This document shows, piece after piece, positions 10,437 to 64,000 of a stretch of 64,000 nt of DNA. Location of the stretch: NCBI GenBank assembly GCA_026874595.1, contig CM049322.1:47279840-47343839 (forward strand), written 5' to 3'. This stretch comes from Sipunculus nudus. Lineage: Eukaryota > Annelida > Sipuncula > Golfingiida > Sipunculidae. Positions within the stretch are counted from its first letter, which is position 1. Each line of letters begins with the position of its first letter. The position numbers and the translations under genes were made by a program. The notes under the pieces were generated by a model. That model worked only from the letters and a program-made list of their open reading frames with translations. It had not been told where the DNA came from and did no database searches.

Positions 10437-10836
10437 GAAAATCTAACTTACACAGGTACACTTCCTTTGAAATCTACAACAAACACTAGTGATTGCCATA
10501 ACAGAAGCGGCTCCGTCTTAATTATAACGTAATGAAATTAACATCAGACGAGACACGAGTGCTCTCTAACCATTAAACTGCCCTGAGATTACATCTAACG
10601 AAACACGTGTCCTTTATGTAACATTATCACGCTATCAACTGAAAATCTAACTTACACAGGTACACTTCCTTTGAAATCTACAACAAACACTAGTGATTGC
10701 CATAACAGAAGCGGCTCCGTCTTAATTATAACGTAATGAAATTAACATCAGACGAGACACGAGTGCTCTCTAACCATTAAACTGCCCTGAGATTACATCT
10801 AACGAGACACGTGTCCTTTTTTGTAACATTATCACG
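10437..10836. repeat. 204-bp tandem duplication
   Basis: Two copies starting at 10437 and 10641 both read GAAAATCTAACTTACACAGG, then the same 190 bp through ACACGTGTCC to ACATTATCACG. They differ at a few bases (AACGAAACACG versus AACGAGACACG, and a T-run). No coding function is seen. Confidence 0.95.
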
Positions 10837-22635: not shown

Positions 22636-23680
22636 CAGTAGAACGCCTGCTAACGGCCACGCCTCAATAGCGGTCAATACGTCTATAACGGTCAGTTTTC
22701 CCGGTCCCGGATTTTCGACAATTATATTTCATAATCATTTTGTTGGCAATTACGGTCACTCCTCTGTTCCGTATTACTCGGTTCAACAGGCTTAGAAACG
22801 CGTCAGTTACGATAAGGGCAGTGGCCTCGTGACATGGGCTCAACAAATCGAGCGGCCACTTCTGACCAAATGGGTGGATGCCAGCATTTATCGTGGGTGG
22901 CTCACAGCATTCGACCGGCGGATGGAACGACGGAAGAGAGAGGTGATGCTCTTCATTGACAACGCACAGGGACACCCAAAGGACACCAAAACAAAGAATG
23001 TCAAGGTTGTTTATCTTCCTGCCAACACTACATCTCAACTCCAGCCTTTAGACCAAGGAATTATTATGACTTTTAAGCGGCACTACAGGAAATTCCTCCT
23101 ACGATCTGTGATCGCCAAGGCTTATAAAGGGGCCGCGGACGTTGCATCTGGAAAGGCCATCAACGTTCTAGATGCTGTCCAGTGGATAGGAGCTGCCGTT
23201 AAAGATATCAAGGAGAGCAAAGTGACAGCATGCTTCAAGAAATCATGCTTCCCTGTTGAAAATGACAATGAAGATAATGAAGATGACATCCCATTGAGCC
23301 AACACATTGCTAGAGCAACCCATCAGCTGAACATCAAGGACCCCATATTCGATGAAGAATTCGTCAACTCAGACCAGCATGCCCCGTCTGTGGAGGAACT
23401 GAATGATAACTGGAAAAGAGACTTGGTGAGTGAAGCCATGGAACCGGCCGCCAGCGACAAGGATTCTGACAGTGAAACAGAACAGCCTGAGTCAGAGGAA
23501 TGCACCATTAAAGCCATATCAGAGGCATTGAAATGGGCACGGCAACTCAAACTGTTTTCAGTGAAGAAAGGACCGCGAAAGCCGTGAATTTGGAACTTAC
23601 CTATCAAGATGAAATTGTCAACTTGAAAGTGTGTAACAAACAGTCTTCCATGACTGTTTTCTTCAACCAGAATTAAAGAG
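22636..23680 (+). mobile_element. Internally deleted Tigger/pogo DNA transposon
   Basis: The left end CAGTAGAACGCCTGCTAACG follows a TA, matching Tigger terminal repeats. The plus-strand frame 22829-23587 encodes the second half of a pogo/Tigger DDE transposase: GWLTAFDRRM, MLFIDNAQGHP with the second catalytic Asp, LPANTTSQLQPLDQGII with the third acidic region, then an acidic C-terminus. The DNA-binding helix-turn-helix region and the first catalytic Asp are gone, since only about 190 bp separate the terminal repeat from this half. I could not find the right inverted repeat downstream, so the 3' limit is approximate. It could only be mobilised in trans, if at all. Confidence 0.8.
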
Positions 23681-28019: not shown

Positions 28020-29190
28020 AAATTTTGTCCAAAAATAAGGTCCTGGTCCCGGAGATCCTGGATGCGGTCTCGGTCTGGGAGGTCCTATTCAGAGTCTTGG
28101 TCCAAGAGGGCCCGGTCTCGGACCTGGCCCTCCTGGTCACAACATTATAGGCTCTAATCTCAGTCTTACTCTGGGAGGTCCTGTTCACTTTCGTTGCCAT
28201 GGATATCCTGGTCTCAACATTCTTTTACGAGGTCTTGCTCCCGGTCTTGGGCCCGTTGGTCCTGGATGCGGTCTTAACCCCCGAAGTTCTGCTCCCAGTT
28301 TTGATCCCAAAGATTCTAATCTCGGTTTGGTCTAGATCTCGGTTTGGTCTAGGCCTCGGTTGGGTCTAGGGCTCGGTTTGGTCTAGGCCTCGGTCTTGGT
28401 CCCGGCCTGAGGTCCTGCTCCCGGTCTTGGTTGTGAGATCCTGGTCTCGGTTTGGTCTAGATCTTGGTTTGGTCTAGGACTCGGTTTGGTCCAGGACTCG
28501 GTCATGGTCCTGACCTGAGGTCCTGCTCCCGGGCTTGGTTGTGAGATTCTAGTCTTGGTTGGGTCTAGGTCTCGGTTTGGTCTAGGTCTCGGTTTGGTCT
28601 AGGACTCGGTATGATCTAGGACTCGGTCATGGTCCCGACCTGAGGTCCTCCTCCAGGTCTTGGTTGTATAGATTCTGGTCTATGTTTGGTCTAGGTCTCG
28701 GTTTGGCTAGGACTCGGTTTGGTCAAGGACTCTGTCTCTTTCCCGGCCTGAGGTACTGCTCCCGGTTTTGGTCGCAGAGATTCTAGTCTCGTTTGGTCTA
28801 GGTCTCGGTTTGGTCTAGGACTCGGTTTGGTCTAGGTTTCGGTTTAGTCTAGGACTAGGTTTGGTCTAGGACTCGGTCTTCGTCCCGGCTTGAGGTCCTG
28901 CTCCCGATCTTTGTTGTAGAGATCCTGGTCTCGGTTTGGTCCAAGCCTCGGTTTGGTCTTAGACTCGATTTAGTCTAGGACTCGGACTTGGGATGGCCAG
29001 AGGTCCTGCTCCCGATCTAAGTCACAGGGATCTTTGGTAGGGTTTGGCCTAAGAGGTCTTGGTCTCATGTCTCAACAAATAATTCATCAAACGTTTTATG
29101 AAGACTCATCGAAATTTTGTGAGAATATTGACCATGCTATAAGTGAAGAGATGACACTTGTTATGGTCTTGAGGTCTCGGCGATGCTTTC
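28020..29190. repeat. Nested minisatellite built on GGTCTCGGTTTGGTCTAG
   Basis: An 18-bp word (CTCGGTTTGGTCTAGGA and variants) repeats in short runs. The runs are separated about every 100-130 bp by a second module, CCTGAGGTCCTGCTCCCGGT then CTTGGTTGTGAGATCCTGG, seen near 28405, 28515, 28640, 28750, 28885 and 29000. This is a higher-order repeat structure. The short open frames of Arg/Ser/Gly composition in it are by-products of the repeat. Confidence 0.85.
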
Positions 29191-36484: not shown

Positions 36485-38101
36485 CATATATTTTTAAAAT
36501 AATAGTTCGTCTGTTAATGTTATTATGAACACTTGGAGAATATTAAACAAAATATCAAGTGGCTCATAGTTGTTCAGCAGGGTTCATTATCATGCCATCT
36601 AAGACCTCAATAAATATCAAACCATGTTACACAATATATTATATGAATGATAGAGGAGTAAAATTCTGTATTGGGATGACTGGCCGCCTAAGGTGATCGG
36701 ATCACATTATATTCTCAGGTCTTATTAGAGTCTCTGACCGTATTACATTATAGGATCTGCTTGCGTTAAAGGCTATGACCGCATAACATGACCTGACCGT
36801 ATCAAAGGCTTTGACTGCATTACAGGATTCCTCCGTATATCAGAGGTTATTACCACATTGAAGACTGTATAACATGCGTTGACCGCATTAGAGACTCTGA
36901 CCGCATCACAGACTCGAACGACCTTTTGGGATCCGATCAAAGGCTATACTGCAGTAGTGGTGTTTCCGCAATAATTGAAATATTGCCTGGTCTCGTGACC
37001 TGTAGAACACTTACCAGGTCCTTGAGAACGGCTTTGTTGGATGCTTATATGTGTGTCCTTCGTTCTCACTAAAAAAAAAAAGAAAAGTAGACATTTCTAT
37101 TCAGATGGAATGAGTTTAGCGCTTCTAATCACTGATCAGAGTGGAATTATAGGCAGATATTTAGATGAAACCATCTCTCGCATAAATCGTCAAACACGTA
37201 TTTTAATCCAATTCAAGCACACGGGGCATTTTGTATATTGACTCACTTTTGTCAATGCATAAACATAAGGACAAGGTGTGATCTTCTCACAACATTCTCA
37301 TCGTATTAAATAGTGTTAGCTTCCATAATATTTATCATTTTTGACAATTATATTCTTAATTTTTCGAATAATTTCGAATATTTAAAATTGAAATGTTTTG
37401 ACGGAACAGGCCATTACCCATGCCTATACCTTATATTCATCGACATAAGTAACTTCCCATAATGCCTAAAAATGTGAAACTATGCACGTCCAAAACCCGA
37501 TGATTTACCGTAAGTATTAAAAGCGATGCTGGTTTGTTGTTGCCAGCCATCACCGGTAAATATACACTGAAAGGCGCCTTCATCTTTTGCTGTCACTTCT
37601 GACAAGGAGAGGCTGAACGCTTGTGGTGCCCTCTTGTATGATATCCTCTTGCTGAAAGATGGATGTAAAACTTCACCGGAACCGGAAGTTGTGCTGTAAT
37701 TAAAAATCTCCACGGTCTTCCCCAGGGATTTAAGGTTAAACCTGACGTCATAGTCTGTGTATGTGATGGAGTGTAAACAGGTCATGGTCGCGGTCCCTCC
37801 AACTTCCGTTTGCACATGCGCCCTGGCGGGCCACACCGACGGAACTGCAAAGATCGAGTAACAATGAAAACAAAAGAAGTTACAATATTGCAAGTGCTTG
37901 GCACGAGTGATTTCTGAAAACTCTTGCAGCAGATAGGAATAAAATTGTGAGAATACCAGTAGAATACCACACTGAAAAAAATAGGGTAACACACCGGAAT
38001 CCATACTCACTAATCTTTCCCATGGAAGAATGCCCGCTCAGCGCGACCGCCGTTATCATGGCAATGAACGTCTTGAACATGCTAGTCGTGGTGTAATCCA
38101 T
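36003..38101 (-). CDS. Single-pass membrane protein with one immunoglobulin V-set domain
   Basis: Exons on the minus strand: 38101-38011, 37844-37509, 37068-37015 and 36103-36003. All internal junctions are phase 1 and have GT-AG borders. Exon 1 encodes a signal peptide (MFKTFIAMITAVALSGHSS). Exon 2 is one Ig V-set domain. Its B-strand Cys (GGTATMTC) and F-strand Cys (DEGAFQC) are 71 residues apart, with an N-glycosylation sequon (NYS) between. The usual core Trp of strand C is replaced (DVRFNL). Exon 3 is an 18-residue stalk with a very strong T-run acceptor. Exon 4 holds the membrane helix (VGVLIGYLAVILFAILVIYK) and the basic stop-transfer KWKTRE. The cytoplasmic tail exon is not certain (see 30427-30465). 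The layout resembles small Ig receptors such as B7-, CTX- or TMIGD-like proteins; ligand and role are unknown. It shares strand and exon style with the gene at 15.8-21 kb. Confidence 0.72.
36450..36481. repeat. (TA)n microsatellite
   Basis: About 16 perfect repeats within the last mapped intron of the Ig receptor gene. Confidence 0.95.
36690..36960. repeat. Degenerate short minisatellite in an Ig receptor intron
   Basis: Variants of GACCGCATTAGAGACTCT, GACCGTATCAAAGGCTTT and GACTGCATTACAGGATTC recur about every 20-30 bp. They lie between the transmembrane and stalk exons, ending about 60 bp from the stalk exon donor. Confidence 0.65.
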
Positions 38102-48868: not shown

Positions 48869-51800
48869 CTAGTGATATGGCTTCTTCTGATTGGCTGATG
48901 AGGGTGGTATGTCTATGCTGTCATGGAGATGACCAAGGGTTTTTCTCATCTGCAAAAAATAATAACTTTATTAATTTTTCCTTTAAAAAATGTTTAACTA
49001 GGACCTTTCAGAGTCTCTATTTTTGGCATTTATAATTATTAATACCACTCTTAAAGGGTCCTATTTTCAAAATGTTACCCTTGGCCAGCCATCCCTGGTT
49101 CAGCACACTGACCTGTGACTGCCTCCACAAAAAGGGATGAAGCTGATTCAGTTATACAATTCTTACACAGAGGTCAGGTAACATATGTTTTAACTTATTT
49201 AACTTATCCACTGCCATTTATATACACAAGGGTACTGGGCCAAGAGTTTACCAAAATTCAGAATCACTACTGCAAAAACCAGCAATATCTCTTTCTCACT
49301 GGATTTGTGTGTAACCATCTGGTCTATGAACTAAAAAAAATATATATATATATATAAATATATATCTATACTTTTATCTAGTATTCCATCACCACTGTGT
49401 GTGGCTAGCTTTTAGTCCTTATGAAGTGATGTGGCTTATGACACATCTTATCTGGCCTACCTCATGACCAGGCCTACCATGCCTGAAAAAGTGGTGGTAA
49501 AAACTACTATTTGGCACATTTTCTTCCACAATATTGCATTTCTTACTGATATGGCTTACATGAAGGTATGCCACATCAGGACATACCCAACATGATATCT
49601 ATAACCAGTGAACTTTGTTTTTAAATTCACACAATAGTCTGTAATCACTCATTGGTTTAACTGAAAAATGAAGAATAAGCTCAAACTCCATACATGGAAC
49701 TGGTGGTAGTCAAAGATAGGAGTAACCCTCATCAGGGCATGCTTGTGCATGTGTTAGTGTGTGTGTGTTTATGTGTGCGTGTGTTAATCCTCTTACTAAC
49801 CTGGTCTACAAGCTGTATGGAGGCGTCCAGCACCTGTTTCCAGCGTTCCATCTCGGCCGTATGAATGTGATGCTGTTGGTCAAGCAGTCTCACCCAGTCT
49901 TCATGGGACTTTGGAACACTTCTACAGCAAAAGTAACCTAAGTCAGTTATCCTGCAATACTGACCCAAGGACTTCCGAGTTGACAATTAAAGTAAAATCT
50001 GAGTTGACTTAAGAGCCTGTGCCATCTCAATTGAATTTGTGCTATAAAAGTCTGAGTTGACTCTTTGTAACTTAAATTCGAGTTAACAAAGAATTACTTA
50101 AATCTGAGCTGATTTTGCATGGCATAAATCCGAGTTAATTTTGTGTAACTAAAACCAGAGCGTACTTTGTGCCAGTCATATTTGCTTAAATTAGAATTTA
50201 CTCAGTGTAATTTAAATCTGGACTGATTCTGTGTAACTTAAAACTGAGTTGTCTGACTCTGTGTAGCTAAATTATAAGTTGACAAAAGTGTGGTTATGCT
50301 TAATGTTAACCTCAATTCCCTTTATACTTCATCAAAGCTCATTCAATATTTCAGATAAACTTATTTTTATTAAATACAACATATACTTGAAACATTATTC
50401 TATCAAAAACCTTAATTAACCCTAAGAAATCAGCTGACTTTTTTTTTTACATTATTTAGTTGATATTTAAGTTCGTGCTCTTGGCCGCCACTTACTTGTA
50501 TGAGAAAACATGGTCCCTGCTTCTGTAGTGAGCTAACTCAGCTTTACGTTCTAGTGACAGCAGTTTGTAAAACAGGAGGGCATTGAACATGACCAGCAGT
50601 ATTAATCTGCAAAATAAAACATTACTGTAAATTGCATACACAACTCAGGGGTTAAAGGTCAAAGGTTAATATGTACAATATAAAACATGAGGGACTTTGA
50701 CATAACCAACAATGAACAGGATTAATCTACAAAAAAAGATAATTACTATATATGACATACTTAACACAGGGGTTAAAGGTCAAGGTTTACATATATAAAT
50801 ATATTAAAAAAGAGGAGATTGAACATAACCAGCAGAATTTAATCTGCAAATAAAACATTACCATATATAACATGTACAATTCAGGGATTATAGGTAAAAG
50901 GTTAACATATTTCCAAAATTTAAGAGTATAATCAACTAATATGATTAGCTGGAAGAGGAAGATGGTGAGAGTAGGCCTACGGTTATGACATACTCATCTG
51001 AGTATAATATGAAAATGTATGATACAGATATGTAAACAGGCTATTCAGAGGCCATCTTAAATCAGAAAACAAGTTTTCAACATGTTCTTTTTATGGATAT
51101 ATTTCAATATAAAAATAAAAGTATAAATATATATGTAGACATATTGGTGTAGACATTTTGTGCAATTTATAAAACATTAGTAAACATATAAAATAATAAT
51201 ATGCACAAGTTTCCACTTTGGCTTAATGACAAAAAATACTCAAATTCAGCCCACAGTATTTGAAGCTTTGCAGATTCAATTTATCAATAAGTGTACATCA
51301 AAGCCTGATTAATTTTTTTTATAAACAATACTAACAATGTTTGCATTTCTTTTTGTTTCTGATATCACACTGACATTTATAATTGCTACAATTTTTTTTT
51401 TTATCCTGAAAGGTAACATAAAGATTTACAATAATTTTGTTACTCACACAATACACATCACACGGACTAGTGTGTCCATGCTAAAGTTCATGTGCCATTC
51501 TTCTGTAGGGGCTGGACCTGAAATCATCAACAACAAAATGACTTTACCTCCTAAAGAAATAAAATTTGAATCAATAAGTTAAGGTGTGTGATATACCTCA
51601 CAACTTGTCAATGCTAAAAGCTAATTTCTAAATCTGACCTTCAAAAAGTAAATCAGCTGTTAATGTCTATATCTAAAGAAAATTTTACAAAAAAAAATTA
51701 AGCAACGGATACCTTAATATACTTCATAATTATTGCTCTTGCAAAAAATATGTTATGTTTATTAATTTACAGAGACTTTGAAATCCCTATATATTTTTTA

Positions 51801-54800
51801 CAATGCAAAACAGTTGTTGCAATTGATAGGAGCAAATTTGTATAATTCAAGGAAAATGACAAGATTTTATTTTAACTATACACCTCATGGTCTGTATCAA
51901 ATGTTTTAAACACGCGCTTAACTGCCTCAGCTCTGTGTGGAGAGTGAGTAGTATATATGTGTGGGAGGCTTTTCATGAATCAGAGACAATGGGTGTCTGA
52001 GATATGCAGTGAATTGAATTTCAATTTAGTGGGGGCTGCACTTGATCTGTGTGGAGAGTGATTATTATCTTACAGGAATGGCATTTGATCTGTGTGGAGA
52101 GTGATGATCACCTTTACTCGAACTGCCCAGGATATTTGTAGAGAATGATTATCACACTTAGTGGCATTGCCCAGGATCTGAGTGGAGAGTAATTATTACC
52201 TTAGTAGGACTACCCTGGATCCGTGTGGAGAGTGATTATTACCTTAGTAGGACTACCCTGGATCTGTGTGGAGAGTGATTATTACTTGTAGTGGGACTAC
52301 CCTGGATCCGTGTGGAGAGTGATTATTACCTTAGTAGGACTACCCTGGATCTGTGTGGAGTGTGATTTTACCTTTGGCAGGACTGCCCTGGATCTGTGTG
52401 GAGTGTGATTTTACCTTTGGCAGGACTGCCCTGGATCTGTGTGGAGTGTGATTTTACCTTTGGCAGGACTGCCCTGGATCTGTATGGAGTGTGATTTTAC
52501 CTTTGGCAGGACTGCCCTGGATCTGTGTGGAGTGTGATTTTACCTTTGGCAGGACTGCCCTGGATCTGTGTGGAGTGTGATTTTACCTTTGGCAGGACTG
52601 CCCTGGATCTGTGTGGAGTGTGATTTTACCTTTGGCAGGACTGCCCTGGATCTGTGTGGAGTGTGATTTTACCTTTGGCAGGACTGCCCTGGATCTGTGT
52701 GGAGTGTGATTTTACCTTTGGCAGGACTGCCCTGGATCTGTGTGGAGTGTGATTTTACCTTTAGCAGGACTGCCCTGGATCTGTGTGGAGTGTGATTTTA
52801 CCTTTGGCAGGACTGCCCTGGATCTGTGTGGAGTGTGATTTTACCTTTGGCAGGACTGCCCTGGATCTGTGTGGAGTGTGATTTTACCTTTGGCAGGACT
52901 GCCCTGGATCTGTGTGGAGTGTGATTTTTACCTTTAGCAGGACTGCCCTGGATCTGTGTGGAGTGTGATTTTTACCTTTGGCAGGACTGCCCTGGATCTG
53001 TGTGGAGTGTTATTTTACCTCTGGCAGGACTGCCATGGATGTGTGGAGTGTGATTTTTACCTTTGGCAGGACTGCCCTGGATCTGTGTGGAGTGTGATTT
53101 TACCTTTAGCAGGACTGCCCTGGATCTGTATGGAGTGTGATTTTACCTTTGGCAGGACTGCCCTGGATCTGTGTGGAGTGTGATTTTACCTTTGGCAGGA
53201 CTGCCCTGGATCTGTGTGGAGTGTGATTTTACCTTTAGCAGGACTGCCCTGGATCTGTGTGGAGTGTGATTTTACCTTTGGCAGGACTGCCCTGGATCTG
53301 TGTGGAGTGTGATTTTACCTTTGGCAGGACTGCCCTGGATCTGTGTGGAGTGTGATTTTTACCTTTGGCAGGACTGCCCTGGATCTGTGTGGAGTGTGAT
53401 TTTTACCTTTAGCAGGACTGCCCTGGATCTGCGTGGAGTGTGATTTTTACCTTTGGCAGGACTGCCCTGGATCTGTGTGGAGTGTTATTTTACCTCTGGC
53501 AGGACTGCCATGGATGTGTGGAGTGTGATTTTTACCTTTGGCAGGACTGCCCTGGATCTGTGTAGAGTGTGATTTTTACCTTTGTAGAGCCCCGTTTTTT
53601 CCGTTTTAACGGAAAAACGGACGGAAAAACGGAATCAGGGTCTCAAAACGGAATCCTATTACGTGAACGGAATATGACGGAAAGTCAGATTTAGAGTAAA
53701 TAAATACTGCAAATAAAGAAAAATCTTTAAAACAGGTCTGTAAAAACAATCTTTCGAACTGCACTAACAACTTTTACAACAGAAAGGCTAACACATTTCG
53801 GCTCTAAATCGTCGTATTGCGCGAAAAATGGTAAACAGGTAAAACATTCATGTCATGAGCGGCAATATTGTCATAGTGCAACAGCACAAGGCTGTTTGGT
53901 GCGATGTTATGCGACTATTACTAGTCCCAAACGGACCAGTATTCCCTTCTCCATAATCGTGTTGGCGTATGAAATACAACTAGTCCGGTAGGATTAGTAG
54001 TCACATTTGAAATTTGCCTGGGTGCGTGAGCGCCAGTCAGGGTCTCGCATATCCATTTCAATATGCAAATAGGTCAAGACTGCGAAGCGGGAACGCTCTG
54101 ATACCGCGTGTACAGTTGGGCAAAATGGCCACCAAACAATTGAAACGATCAACGTTAACTGCGTCCAAGCGAGCAGAACAGTTCAAAGATGATTTGTATG
54201 CGGATGGTGACCAACTATTTTGCCGGTTTTGTCAGCACACGCTGGACTTCCAGCGTGTGGACACTGTGAAGGACCATTTGTCAAGCAAGAAGCACATCAC
54301 GCGCAAAGAAAAACGTCAACCTACAGCTGCCACAGCAAATAGTTCGAAGGGAAAAGAGGCTTGTCAGGTGACATTGCATTCAGAGAAGCTATCGTCTTCT
54401 ATGGCTGTGAGACAAAAATTTATTTGCGACTTTGTAAATATGTGCGTCAGCCTTGATATTCCTTTGCATAAAGGTGAAAAAATGAAAGGTTTCATGGAAA
54501 CCTACTGCAAACAAGGTGGGGCACTGCCGGGGGAAGATACCCTGAGACGACGATATCTGCCAAGAGTGTTTGAGGAACATCGCGCACAACTACGTGCTGG
54601 CCTCAAGGGTAAGAAGATCAGACATAAGAGATGCATCAGTGCTAAATGTAGTGGCACGTAAGTTTTTAAATATTAATTTTTAGAATATTCTTTATTTTTT
54701 TTTATCTGCATATAAATCATTGTGATAAAATGTCTACTCGTAGAAATAGAACTATTGCCAGTTACATGCAATAAATAATGGATAAAAGATCAACAAAAAA

Positions 54801-57800
54801 TAGACACTTTAAATGGTATGTCTTTTAATGCCTCTTCAAACTTTTTCTCCCCCCCCCCCCCTCCATTAGGCCTTTTTTTCATAAAGTTTATCATTTTAAT
54901 ATTTTTATGTGTTTTAATTAGAACAAGTCATATGGTAGAAGTTATACTAAGTAAAAAGCTCTTAGAATTTATTTCCATTATTTTATATTTTCCAGTGATC
55001 AGTTCTGGCCAGTATTTGATAGACTGTCACTTCCTTGATGCATGCAACTATTCCACGGTGTCCCGGGCTGTTGTCAATACCATCCACACATATGAACTGG
55101 AATACAAGGATGTTCTTGCAATCGTCAGCGACAGTGCAGCCTATTGTAAAAAAGCATTCAAAGATGTTCTGCATGGACTTATGCCTGGAGCTGTACATGT
55201 ACCCTGCCTAGCTCATATTGTAAATTTGGTAGGGGATACTTTCACACACCATACAACTTTCTCCACTGCAGAAAAATTTTTCAACATGATGAAATCATGT
55301 TTCTTCAAAAAACCAAGCAGAAAGAGGAGATACTTGCAGTTTTTGAAGGAAAGACATGTTCAGAATCCAACACTTCCACCTGAGCCTGTTCAGACCCGAT
55401 GGGGGACATGGTTTCGAGCAATTTCCTACCACCATGCACATCTACAATACTACTTGGACTTCTTCAGAAATGAAAAATCTCATGCTAATGCCGTGATGGC
55501 AGTGGTATCTCTCTTACAGGATCCAGATACTCTAGAGGAGCTTCAGATATCATTTGCCTTTCTCAGCGATGTTGGTCCAAAGCTATCAACAGCTATCACT
55601 TTACTGGAAGGAACAAACACCCCACAGTCACCACTGGTTTACAACCGCATGGAAGATCTCAAGCTGTTTCTTTCACATGGAGTATCCCCTGACCAAACTA
55701 TGTATGGACCAAACTCACAAGCTGTCCTTGATGACATCCCTTTATCTGAGAGACATACATGGCGATTAAAGTTCACAGAAATATTCCAGAAGGCACTGGA
55801 TAAACTGAAGAAACACTTTGACAATCATCCAAGCCACCATATCTACAAAGCATGTAGGGTTCTTGACCCTAGACAGGTTCCTTCACTCTCACAGAACATT
55901 TGTCACTACAGTGCACTCTCTGGTCTGAGCCAAAATGATCAGGAGGTTGCTGATGAATGGCTGATATATCAACAACTCTGTGTTACAGAACATCTCCCTG
56001 ACCCATTCAATTTCATCACATTTTGGTCAAGTTTGGCAAATCGTCTCCCCAAGTTGTTTGCCATTGCAAATGCCTACCTCTGGTTCCCAGTCTCTAGTGT
56101 TGACACTGAGAGATCCTTTTCTCACTACAAACTAATGCTCTCTGATAGAAGGGTCAGTCTGACAGAAGAAACTACCAAAATGCTTAGTATCATGAACTTT
56201 AACAAAGAACTTTCATTTGACTGAATTTTGTGTTGACAATCATGTAAAACATCTTAGCATTAACAGTGCTGATCCACATAATGTGCAGCACTGTGCACAT
56301 AAATTATAATGATATCTGTTTAACAGTGTTAGTTGTGGCTGTGAAAATGAAGAAATGGCAACATTATTTATCTTGTAATTTGTTTTATACACTTACAGTA
56401 ATAAACAAGTGTGTAATGGTCGTTTTCTTTATTACTCCCTATACAGATTTAATAAATTAACTTTTGCATCAGTCATGATAGCTACATAATTTGATTATTT
56501 ATATTGAAAATAAATCCAACTAATAGAAATTGCACAAATATTTGACTTTTAAGAGCATGTAGATTATTTTATATAAAATATGATGATAAAACGGAAAATT
56601 CCGGAATCTTTATTTTATTAAAACGGAAAATGAGAATTTATAAAACGGAAAAAACGGGGCTCTACCTTTGGCAGAACTGCCCTGGATCTGTGTGGAGTGT
56701 GATTTTTACCTTTGGCAGGACTGCCCTGGATCTGTGTGGAGTGTGATTTTTACCTTTGGCAGGACTGCCCTTGATCTGTGTGGAGTGTTATTTTACCTCT
56801 GGCAGGACTGCCATGGATGTGTGGAGTGTGATTTTTACCTTTGGCAGGACTGCCCTGGATCTGTGTGGAGTGTGATTTTTACCTTTGGCAGGACTGCCCT
56901 GGATCTGTGTGGAGTGTGATTTTTACCTTTGGCAGGACTGCCCTGGATCTGTGTGGAGTGTGATTTTTACCTTTAGCAGGACTGCCCTGGATCTGTGTGG
57001 AGTGTGATTTTTACCTTTGGCAGGACTGCCCTGGATCTGTGTGGAGTGTTATTTTACCTCTGGCAGGACTGCCATGGATGTGTGGAGTGTGATTTTTACC
57101 TTTGGCAGGACTGCCCTGGATCTGTGTAGTGTGATTTTTACCTTTGGCAGAACTGCCCTGGATCTGTGTGGAGTGTGATTTTTACCTTTGGCAGGACTGC
57201 CCTGGATCTGTGTGGAGTGTGATTTTTACCTTTGGCAGGACTGCCCTGGATCTGTGTGGAGTGTTATTTTACCTCTGGCAGGACTGCCATGGATGTGTGG
57301 AGTGTGATTTTTACCTTTGGCAGGACTGCCCTGGATCTGTGTGGAGTGTGATTTTTACCTTTGGCAGGACTGCCCTGGATCTGTGTGGAGTGTGATTTTT
57401 ACCTTTGGCAGGACTGCCCTGGATCTGTGTGGAGTGTTATTTTACCTCTGGCAGGACTGCCATGGATGTGTGGAGTGTGATTTTTACCTTTGGCAGGACT
57501 GCCCTGGATCTGTGTGGAGTGTGATTTTTACCTTTGGCAGGACTGCCCTCGATCTGTGTGGAGTGTGATTTTTACCTTTAGCAGGACTGCCCTGGATCTG
57601 TGCGGAGTGTGATTCTACTGGCCGTTTCACGGATGGAGTGTGTTCTGTTGTGGTGCTGTGCATGCGGCGACGACGTCGTACTTTCTTTCTTGGAGCGGTT
57701 GCTGCAGCTGTTTCTGTGTATTTATCACATTCTTTCTGTAAGTTCTGGGCTACAAGGATGAAGATTTTAATATAATTGACTAAGTGTTTGTTTATTGAAA

Positions 57801-60722: not shown

Positions 60723-61298
60723 CTAACACTCAGGCAGTCTGCTAAGAAAATCAGGTCCATGGTTTAGTTTACCTGACACTGCTTCAATATCAAATCTAAA
60801 CTCTTGTAGAACCAGTGCCCATCTCATTACTCTCTTATTAGCACATTTTGATTTGCTAATACACTTTAATGGTTTGTGGTCGGTCTGAATGGTGAACGGT
60901 CTACAAGCCAGGTACATCTCAAATTTCTGTACAGACCATACAATTGCTAATGACTCTTTCTCGATGGTGGAGTAATTTCTCTCCCTGGGCAATAGTTTAC
61001 GACTGGCATAAGCTACTGGGTGCAGGATCCCCTCGTGTCTTTGCATCAGGATACAGCCAATACCCACATCAGATGCATCACATTTCAAATAAAATTGTTT
61101 ACTGAAATCAGGTAGCTTCAGTATGGGAGGGTCTGACAGTTTAGCCTTTAGAGAACAGTACACGTTCTCGTGTACGGGTTTCCAGTCTAGTTTGTTAGGT
61201 TGACCTTTACGCGTTAGATCAGTCAAGGGCACCGCTATTTCCGCATAGTTTGGCACGAATTTTCGATAGTACCCTGTAAGACCTAGGAATGCTCGCAA
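60723..61298 (-). pseudogene. Gypsy reverse transcriptase (thumb only) and RNase H
   Basis: It begins at the post-palm connection (AFLGLTGYYRKFVPNYAEIA), followed by the RNase H domain with LKCDASDVGIGC, STIEKESLAIVW and QTDHKPLK, ending DFLSRLPEC and a stop. RNase H residues are intact, but the polymerase palm with the YxDD catalytic motif is absent. The stop directly after RNase H is expected when RNase H is the last pol domain. It lies just downstream of the integrase frame on the same strand, in a different frame. Confidence 0.85.
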
Positions 61299-61320
61299 AG
61301 CCTTCTTTGTCTTAGGTCTA

Positions 61321-62385
61321 TCAGTGCTCTGTTTCCCCGTCTACACCGTAAGGATCATGTATAGAATCAGGTGCGCCCTTGGCTACTGCTGCCAGAATAT
61401 GCTGGGGCTCGTTTCTAGCATGGTACCGTTTCAGCATATTCACGTGGAAGGTTTTAACCTTATCGCCAATCTTAATCCGATAGTCTAAGTCACCAACCCT
61501 GTTTACAATAGTATAGGGGCCTTTCCACTGTACCATTAATTTGTTCCGCTCCGTCGGGAGTAACAACAAAACTTCGTCTCCGGCCTCAAACCTGCGCGTG
61601 CATTTACCTCTATCATATAACAGTCTGTGTCTGTTCGCTGATTTGTTCAACGCCTCTCTAGCTAACGCGCATGTGTCGCTTAGTTTGTCTTGTAGGTCCA
61701 GGACATATTGGTACGTGGTTTTAGTCTCGACGCTAGTATCTCGCTTGGTCCACAGATCCCTTAGAATCCGCATCGGTCCTCTAACGATCCTACCATAGAG
61801 CAACTCAAAGGGTGAGAACCCTGTGCTCTCATGTGGCGCTTCTCGGTACGCAAAAAGCACAGCGCTGAGGTACCGATCCCAATCTCGCGGTCTTTCCTCG
61901 CACATCCGTTTCAACATTAACTTTAACGTTCCATTGAATCTCTCCACCATTCCGTTGCACATAGGATGGTAAGGAGTAGTGGTGAGCTGTCTTACAGACA
62001 AAACACGGCTAACTGGCATGAGGTCTGACGTAAATTGTGTTCCCATGTCAGTAAGCACCTCTGACGGCACTCCTAACCGCGCATAAATATCAACTAGCGC
62101 ATCAGCCAGAGAGACTGTATCTATGTTCTTTAAAGCAACAGCCTCTGGATATCTAGTGGCATAATCCATAACGGTCAGAATATACCTGTGACCTCTCTCA
62201 GACGCTGGATGGATCGGCCCAACCAGATCCATCGAAATTCTACGCCAGGGCTCATCAATTAATGGCATCTGGCCTAACGTAGCTCCAGGCACCTTGCCTT
62301 TCGGTATGGTTTTCTGGCAAATGGGACAGGACTTGCAAAACTCAGCAATGTCATTATACATCCCTTTCCAGAACAAGTGACCCAT
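61321..62385 (-). pseudogene. Gypsy integrase, upstream of RNase H (Gmr1-like order)
   Basis: A DDE integrase inserts retrotransposon cDNA. The frame starts inside the zinc-binding domain (CKSCPICQK retained, the His pair missing). It carries SMDLVGP and LTDMGTQFTS with the two Asp, and NGMVERFNGTLK with the Glu. The C-terminal part has STGFSPFELLYGR, VQWKGPYTIVNRVG and FHVNMLKRYHAR. Its first codons lie in the R4 repeat end at 62379, so the 5' part of the element has been cut off. The FSPFELLYGR type and the position before RT/RNase H match Gmr1-like Ty3/gypsy elements. Confidence 0.85.
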
Positions 62386-64000
62386 GGGTCATGACGCTCA
62401 GCTGCCAAGCATGACCTGTGACATCATGGACTGAGATTCACAACTTCCAGTCAAATTTTGAAGAACCAATTTGCCCATTTGTTGAAAATTTTCTATGACA
62501 ACAGAAATATATATCACCTATATCTGGTTTAAACACAGTGAATTGATGGTCTGAGGAAAATGCATGATTGTTACGCTATCAGGAACTATTCCAACAGCTT
62601 GCTTGAAACCTGTCAGTCTCAAAAGGAACACCACAAAGGGCAAATATAAGATCAAAATATATAGCACAAATCAAGGAAATACATGCAAGAATTATTGAGA
62701 AACAGGTGTTTCTGTATGAATTTTTATTCAATACAAGCCAACTGTACTGCACTTTTATAAATGATGGTAATATTTATTCAGAAATATTTGACCCAATCCT
62801 TTACAAGATTACATAAATATACATCCAACTGCGTTCACTTTAACTGTTCTTGAGATAATATGATCAAAATGAATTAAAAGATGGTTGCCTGGTGGCCATA
62901 TTGGACTTCTGACAAGTCTGAAATCAGACAACAAACATTCTCTAAATCGGACCAAACATTAAAGAAAAATTACTGAAACTGCCCTGAAGAAAGAATTTCT
63001 AAGGTGGCTAACTGGCAGACATAATGGATTTCTGACAAGTATGACATTTGATATCCCACATTCTCCAATAAGAGACCAAACTTGGGGCAAATTATCCAGG
63101 AATAAATGCCCAAAATAATTCACAAGGCATGTCCAGGCCCTCATATAAGATTTATAGATATGCAATTGTAAAAAGTGCAAGTCCAATATTTTTATTATCA
63201 CTCTGCTTTTCAATGGGGTCAGCAGGGTAGGTAAACTGCCAAACCTGAAAGAAAAGAAATGCAGAAAGCATGACTAAGAGTCTTGAAATAAAACAAAAAG
63301 CCATCCTAAATCAAGGTACACATCCACATATTATGAGAACAAACACTTGCTTTTATATGTGGTGATATATATTAAAATATTCAGATATCTAGGAAACTAA
63401 GTTTATTGCTAGGATTCCATAAAATAAACTGCAAAATGTTCCCATCATCTTATAAATCAGTAGCTAAACCTTAGTACTATACTCTCATAGTCTTAATGCC
63501 TGGCTGAAGCATTCTGACAACAGTGTTTTTGTTATGAAGTAACGAGGTATACTTATCACTGAGCCTTATCACTTAATAGGCTGATACAAAAGGGAGTCAT
63601 ATGTCACCAGTGTCACTCACAATTACAGCCACACAGGGAGATGTAACAGCTGGAGTGGGATGGTTATATATACAAGAAAAATAGAGATGGTCTATAAAAT
63701 AAGTAATTGTGAACATCCCTGACCTATGACCTTGGCCTTTTGCCCATATATCAACTGGATTCTTTCTAAATGATGGGTAACTACTGACCACTTAAATCTG
63801 GTGTAATTACTTGGCAACCAATGGGTGAATAACTCTGACCTGCAACCTTTAACCTGCTGACCAGCTGACCCCAAAATCAATAAGTTATTTATTCAAGCAA
63901 AAAGACCCATAAATATGAAGTTTGAGTCAAACTGAGTGATGCATAGATGTGGCATATGTGAAAGACTGAAGGTTTGGGTTGAACAGTTACACTTGAAATA
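62379..64000 (+). mobile_element. Dispersed repeat R4 (incomplete at the window end)
   Basis: It starts GTGACCCATGGGTCATGACG then CTCAGCTG, the end motif of R1-R3, and abuts the broken integrase. Phrases GGCCATATTGGACTTCTGAC (about 62897) and GGCAGACATAATGGATTTCT (about 63014) repeat internally, and TGACCTATGACCTTGGCC-like words near the end match R1. No coding frame is seen. Confidence 0.5.

Follow-up and report, generated by a model that had tools for sequence, protein, structure and literature searches.

In Sipunculus nudus, the end of one exon of a predicted Aster/GRAMD1 gene is repeated, together with its own 5′ splice site (donor), as a long minisatellite in the adjoining intron. The array lies within a window of 64,000 nucleotides (nt) on contig CM049322.1 (assembly GCA_026874595.1, positions 47,279,840 to 47,343,839), and unprefixed coordinates below are positions in this window. 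Every unit consists of the exon end and the exon's own donor. Judged by its anatomy, the array belongs to the known kind of splice-donor minisatellite represented by human ABCA7 and IFI6: the exon's own donor lies inside the first unit of the adjoining array, and 52 further donors with a strict motif are kept. We consider it likely that the array is a tolerated, slightly leaky load of this kind and not an evolved switch.

The array-bearing exon and its gene

One open frame joins the array-bearing exon (57749-57576) with the preceding exon (58444-58391) and with two following exons (51517-51448, 70 nt, and 50606-50496), all on the minus strand. The array-bearing exon is 174 nt long and has the acceptor CTTGTAG/CCCAG and the donor CTGCTAAAG/GTAAAAATCAC. 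A peptide joined from the VASt exon and these exons, the 70-nt exon included, matched human Aster-C (8axw) at E 1.1e-23; the match reaches the basic run RRRRR, which is encoded in the array-bearing exon, and then stops. Two further upstream exons, just beyond the window, also match Aster-C, and, with a paralogous Aster gene in view, the VASt profile (PF16016) has one place in the genome above the cut-off and two weaker matches below it. The exon at 50606-50496 encodes the stretch LILLVMFNALLFYKL, judged by eye to be a hydrophobic anchor. With VASt domain, basic linker and hydrophobic anchor present in this order, the host gene reads as Aster/GRAMD1. Directly upstream of the Aster exons, on the same strand, retroelement reading frames encode RNase H and integrase domains (60726-62388, minus).

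Anatomy of the array

Wrap-around alignment resolved 60 full units including the exon copy; of these, 22 lie at 57618-56666 and 38 at 53579-51931 (minus strand), in agreement with the 55-60 copies estimated in an initial annotation of the stretch. The units measure 43 nt (n=28), 44 nt (n=23), 42 nt (n=8) or 50 nt (n=1), and Tandem Repeats Finder (TRF) recovers identical arrays. Unit 1 is the last 43 nt of the exon (57618-57576), with the true donor at 57576/57575; all other units are intronic. The annotation's central claim, that the unit is built from the exon's own end and donor, is borne out: when the exon's last 43 nt are aligned with the array unit, 40 of 44 columns match, and the local score of exon against array is 39, compared with a mean of 11.8 and a maximum of 22 in 500 dinucleotide shuffles. 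When its last 43 nt are removed, the exon scores 11 against the array (200-shuffle maximum 17). Since this remainder scores at chance level, only the exon end is clearly common with the array.

The near block (56663-57618, minus) comprises 22 full units including the exon copy, plus the GTA of a unit cut by a transposon. The far block has a homogeneous part (52372-53584, minus) with 28 full units, mostly of 43 nt, and a diverged, older part (51931-52371, minus) with ten units, whose mean identity to the consensus is 0.757, compared with 0.966 for the 50 homogeneous units (exon copy included). These ten units indicate the age of the array. Similarity among units is slightly lower in the near block (0.941) than in the far block (0.961). 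A pair of 42 and 43 nt recurs six times amid 44-nt units, while the far block contains mainly 43-nt units; the mixed unit types and the repeated pair fit the normal pattern of minisatellite turnover.

The initial annotation had further proposed that distal units are diverged and that the array grew outward from the exon. The former holds for the ten units at 51931-52371, but as a sharp step at 52371 rather than as a gradient. Outward growth is not borne out, as distance from the exon and divergence are uncorrelated among the 49 homogeneous intronic units (rho -0.004, p 0.98). At exon-derived positions the farther units are, if anything, slightly closer to the exon copy (rho -0.31, p 0.028).

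At unrelated loci, where its occurrence had been named as a counter-indication, the unit was not found: in the 1.43-Gb genome all 23 exact places and all 23 similarity matches are local, with the limit that the similarity search omits very common words and scores the best candidates only, so that it does not prove the unit absent from other loci. The unit appears to be private to this intron.

The initial annotation had treated 51925-57749 as one array. Both blocks do belong to it, but they are separated by a hAT DNA transposon of 3,078 bp (53585-56662; plus strand according to its transposase frames) that had been overlooked. The insertion contains the hAT dimerisation domain (PF05699, E 1.8e-11) and ends in a 24-nt terminal inverted repeat, whose two outermost bases at one end are part of the target duplication. 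This 8-bp duplication, CAAAGGTA, flanks the element at 53577-53584 and 56663-56670 and equals the donor region of the array unit. Because the target duplication sits within a unit's donor, the array must be older than the insertion and survived it. As the element divides the array, decoy donors of the far block lengthen the exon by 4.0-5.4 kb.

Decoy donors and their predicted messages

We defined a strict decoy as AAGGTAA or AGAGGTAA, thereby excluding diverged units that lack the motif as well as the transposon-cut unit. In a reading-frame computation, each of the 52 strict decoys downstream of the true donor leads to a premature stop ahead of the membrane anchor. The first two cause a frameshift with a stop in the next exon; the other 50 stop within the extension, at a TAA about 90 nt beyond the true donor, which arises from the GTAA in the second decoy donor. 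The extension is a multiple of three in 18 of the 52, yet these stop all the same, so that the earlier suggestion that decoy use would break the message holds for every strict decoy. The first three decoys were re-checked with the 70-nt exon included; skipping of this exon (51517-51448) gives an immediate stop. Since the stops precede the anchor exon, the hydrophobic anchor would be lost in each such mis-splice.

The decoys had also been described as near-identical to the true donor. They do equal it in local sequence, and pairing energies computed with what we take to be the 5′ end of U1 are nearly the same (-6.8 kcal/mol for the true donor, -6.8 and -6.9 kcal/mol for the decoys); three other donors of the Aster gene pair slightly more strongly (-7.1 to -7.5 kcal/mol). 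As neither local sequence nor U1 pairing separates the donors, the choice of 57576 must presumably rest on its adjacency to the real exon. With 52 decoys equal or nearly equal to the true donor, all of them downstream of a single exon, the locus would offer a clean natural test of how the spliceosome settles on the first among many equal 5′ splice sites. Conservation at the donor positions of the decoys does not exceed that of the other unit positions, either in the diverged units (0.256 vs 0.240) or in the homogeneous ones (0.068 vs 0.023, the former figure being driven by a single change in the length of an A run).

Comparison with known systems

Close parallels are known from human genes. 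In ABCA7, a variable number tandem repeat in intron 18 has a 25-bp unit that opens with the GT of the exon 18 donor and is present in about 12 to 427 copies (PMC5954066). Its downstream units are cryptic donors, and retention of one unit causes a frameshift and a stop in human cells; exon 19 skipping increases with array length, whereas unit retention does not (PMC5954066). As in Aster, a minisatellite that includes the donor adjoins the exon, and in Aster, too, use of a downstream donor would lead to a premature stop. On the other hand, the 25-bp unit of ABCA7 is reported as intronic, whereas at least 33 nt of the 43/44-nt Aster unit derive from the exon. The Aster array is also the older of the two, and a transposon interrupts it. 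ABCA7, for its part, has been characterised for length polymorphism and at the RNA level.

The minisatellite of human IFI6 (6-16/G1P3), described in 1995, provides multiple splice donors (Turri 1995, as cited in PMC4526556 and PMC2572611). Like the Aster array it offers many donors, and in IFI6 downstream repeat units are used; however, the IFI6 variants are described as encoding isoforms, whereas the 52 strict Aster decoys all stop. Splicing is also reported to be altered by internal tandem repeats that sit at exon-intron boundaries in recent human duplicates (PMC2812944). These repeats resemble the Aster array as minisatellites spanning exon borders, but are short, on average four copies of 30 bp, and were detected by comparison of paralogues (PMC2812944). 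Tandem copies that hold AG/GT, and hence surplus splice sites, are also described; they have this feature in common with the Aster array, in which, unlike in those cases, no new intron is evident and the copies lie within an existing one.

Further arrays in the Aster gene and in a kinase gene

New in this case is that one gene carries two more arrays, one at another donor and a diverged one at an acceptor. The second donor array lies about 14.7 kb upstream of the main array (L012:8343-8447, C17:47352182-47352286, minus). It consists of units of about 24 bp and starts at the donor of an Aster exon ending in SEEKQ (last base L012:8440, minus), which it follows directly; three later units retain CAG or AAG ahead of GT. 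The acceptor array (50568-50910, minus; 2.9 copies of 121 bp) repeats the intron tail, the acceptor and some 45 nt from the start of the anchor exon. Upstream of the true acceptor it offers two decoys, at 50726 and 50843, both of which lead to stops. The six located Aster exons have 12 edges, of which three fall in arrays, compared with 0.9 predicted from a local coverage of 7.6% (p 0.057). Both additional arrays, as well as the human parallels, had escaped the initial annotation.

A predicted kinase gene provides a clear second case of a donor array in an unrelated gene (L054; C4:93859713-93863946, minus). Its exon ends in SEPYSTK with the donor CCACTAAG/GTAGATACAC and behind it lies a 65-bp array with 24 or more copies, which may extend beyond the examined stretch. 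The array repeats the exon end, the donor and the intron start, and contains 25 further donors of identical sequence.

Probable origin and role of the Aster array

The reading as a tolerated load would begin with a tandem duplication across the border of the Aster exon and its intron, followed by amplification through ordinary minisatellite turnover. With the intact exon and its donor coming first, exon definition would keep splicing at 57576 going. Now and then one of the next one to three donors would be used or the 70-nt exon skipped, yielding messages that, according to the computed frames, contain premature stops; these would be degraded or would encode Aster without its membrane anchor. 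We infer that the exon came first, that the first donor is used predominantly and that the other messages decay. The kinase gene backs this reading, as it has the same anatomy.

Two points weigh against it. The exon-first order for the Aster exon rests on analogy with the kinase case, in which the repeated exon end falls within the matched kinase domain. Furthermore, unit retention in ABCA7 is reported to be unchanged with array length, and the leak need therefore not rise with copy number.

The reverse order, in which the exon was extended into a pre-existing minisatellite and captured one unit as its 3′ end, appears unlikely, even though the exon end falls in the fast-evolving linker between VASt domain and anchor and the match to the PDB structure reaches only as far as the preceding basic run. 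It would require a unit that by chance both preserved the frame and supplied a good donor, and the repeated exon parts in the kinase gene and at the acceptor of the anchor exon encode conserved-looking domain sequence.

Slightly less probable still is a functional switch in which the decoys adjust the amount of Aster through poison-exon extension or give rise to anchor-less Aster. All 52 decoys stop ahead of the anchor exon, and the next acceptor is duplicated too, with decoys that also stop, which speaks for it. However, the decoy donor positions show no extra conservation, a hAT element has been tolerated inside the array, and the comparable array in the kinase gene indicates that such structures occur in other genes.

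We give little credence to the notion that the array is inert and its decoys are never used: exon definition would favour the first donor and the array is old, but the human ABCA7 and IFI6 arrays of like kind are reported to yield extra donor use. A U1 sink or telescripting, by which the array recruits U1 and restrains other splicing or premature polyadenylation, is highly improbable, because more than 50 sites with moderate computed pairing are offset by the general unlikelihood that one transcript titrates the abundant U1, and the array pairs slightly more weakly than three other donors of the same gene.

Donor arrays elsewhere in the genome

It is conceivable, but rather doubtful, that exon borders, above all donors, are a recurrent birthplace of minisatellites, and that donor arrays seeded by exons form a class spread across this genome. 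Such arrays might be present at a few per cent of donors and provide standing variation in how messages are spliced and degraded. Of this proposed class, the clearest case so far is the Aster gene with its two arrays at donors and one at an acceptor. If donor arrays were common here, minisatellite length variation would constitute widespread, measurable splicing noise, as in one disease-linked human gene. The open literature, as far as its text was available, yielded no description of donor-seeded minisatellites as a genome-wide class, which is weak evidence of absence.

In a first sample of 20 kinase exons with 2-kb flanks, whose 40 edges were set by profile match and are hence approximate, arrays reach two of the 40 edge zones, on the donor side in each case, compared with 379 of 4000 random flank zones. 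Besides the L054 array, a 40-bp array of 15 copies starts in the intron right behind the donor of a kinase exon (L047; C9:48356459-48360743, minus), its unit being devoid of that donor. None of the 20 donor stretches of a second kinase sample has an edge array; small arrays lie deeper in three of them (L079, L083 and L085). A donor array is thus present at one of 40 sampled kinase donors (95% interval 0.06-13%). Among the 30 best kinase loci, most of which hold the whole domain in one exon, no array spans a domain edge, and small arrays lie 47 and 73 nt outside the domain (L023 and L046). The kinase sample shows no enrichment at exon borders, and the recurrence may merely reflect a minisatellite-rich genome. 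Enrichment of donor motifs in arrays is likewise not significant: five of 21 arrays score at least 7 with a donor table (shuffle mean 3.45, maximum 7), and two of these five are rows of the one L054 array.

Octamer searches, in which arrays were identified by the octamer alone, irrespective of exons, gave a moderate hint of donor-linked arrays. Raw genome-wide matches number 763 for CAGGTAAG and 690 for the dinucleotide-matched CAGTAAGG; the reversals, GAATGGAC (that of CAGGTAAG) and reversed CAGTAAGG, have 179 and 252. Raw matches do not tell CAGGTAAG from CAGTAAGG, as the counts are close and a few long arrays sway them. Counting arrays grouped by eye, contig C1 has ten with CAGGTAAG, three with CAGTAAGG (counted on this contig only) and two with GAATGGAC; on contigs C1-C3 together, 20 arrays with CAGGTAAG stand against three with GAATGGAC (two-sided p 0.0005). 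Outside arrays, about 308 kb contain 12, 9 and 7 matches of CAGGTAAG, CAGTAAGG and GAATGGAC, respectively. A T follows CAGGTAAG in 11 of the 20 arrays, with one more mixed (by eye; p 0.028 for an assumed background of 0.32). The shorter AAGGTAA has 5530 matches and its reversal 1060. Several distinct minisatellites bearing AAGGTAA lie at C1:955906-2827686, within the first 2.8 Mb, perhaps as a chromosome-end effect.

Other features of the window

The window also contains a DDE_1 transposase fragment (PF03184) at 22796-23584 (plus) and an immunoglobulin V-set domain in the reading frame at 37483-38037 (minus). Two more repeats, at 10437-10836 and 28289-29014, are a tandem duplication of 204 bp with 98% identity and a GC-richer minisatellite of complex make-up based on 17 bp, respectively.

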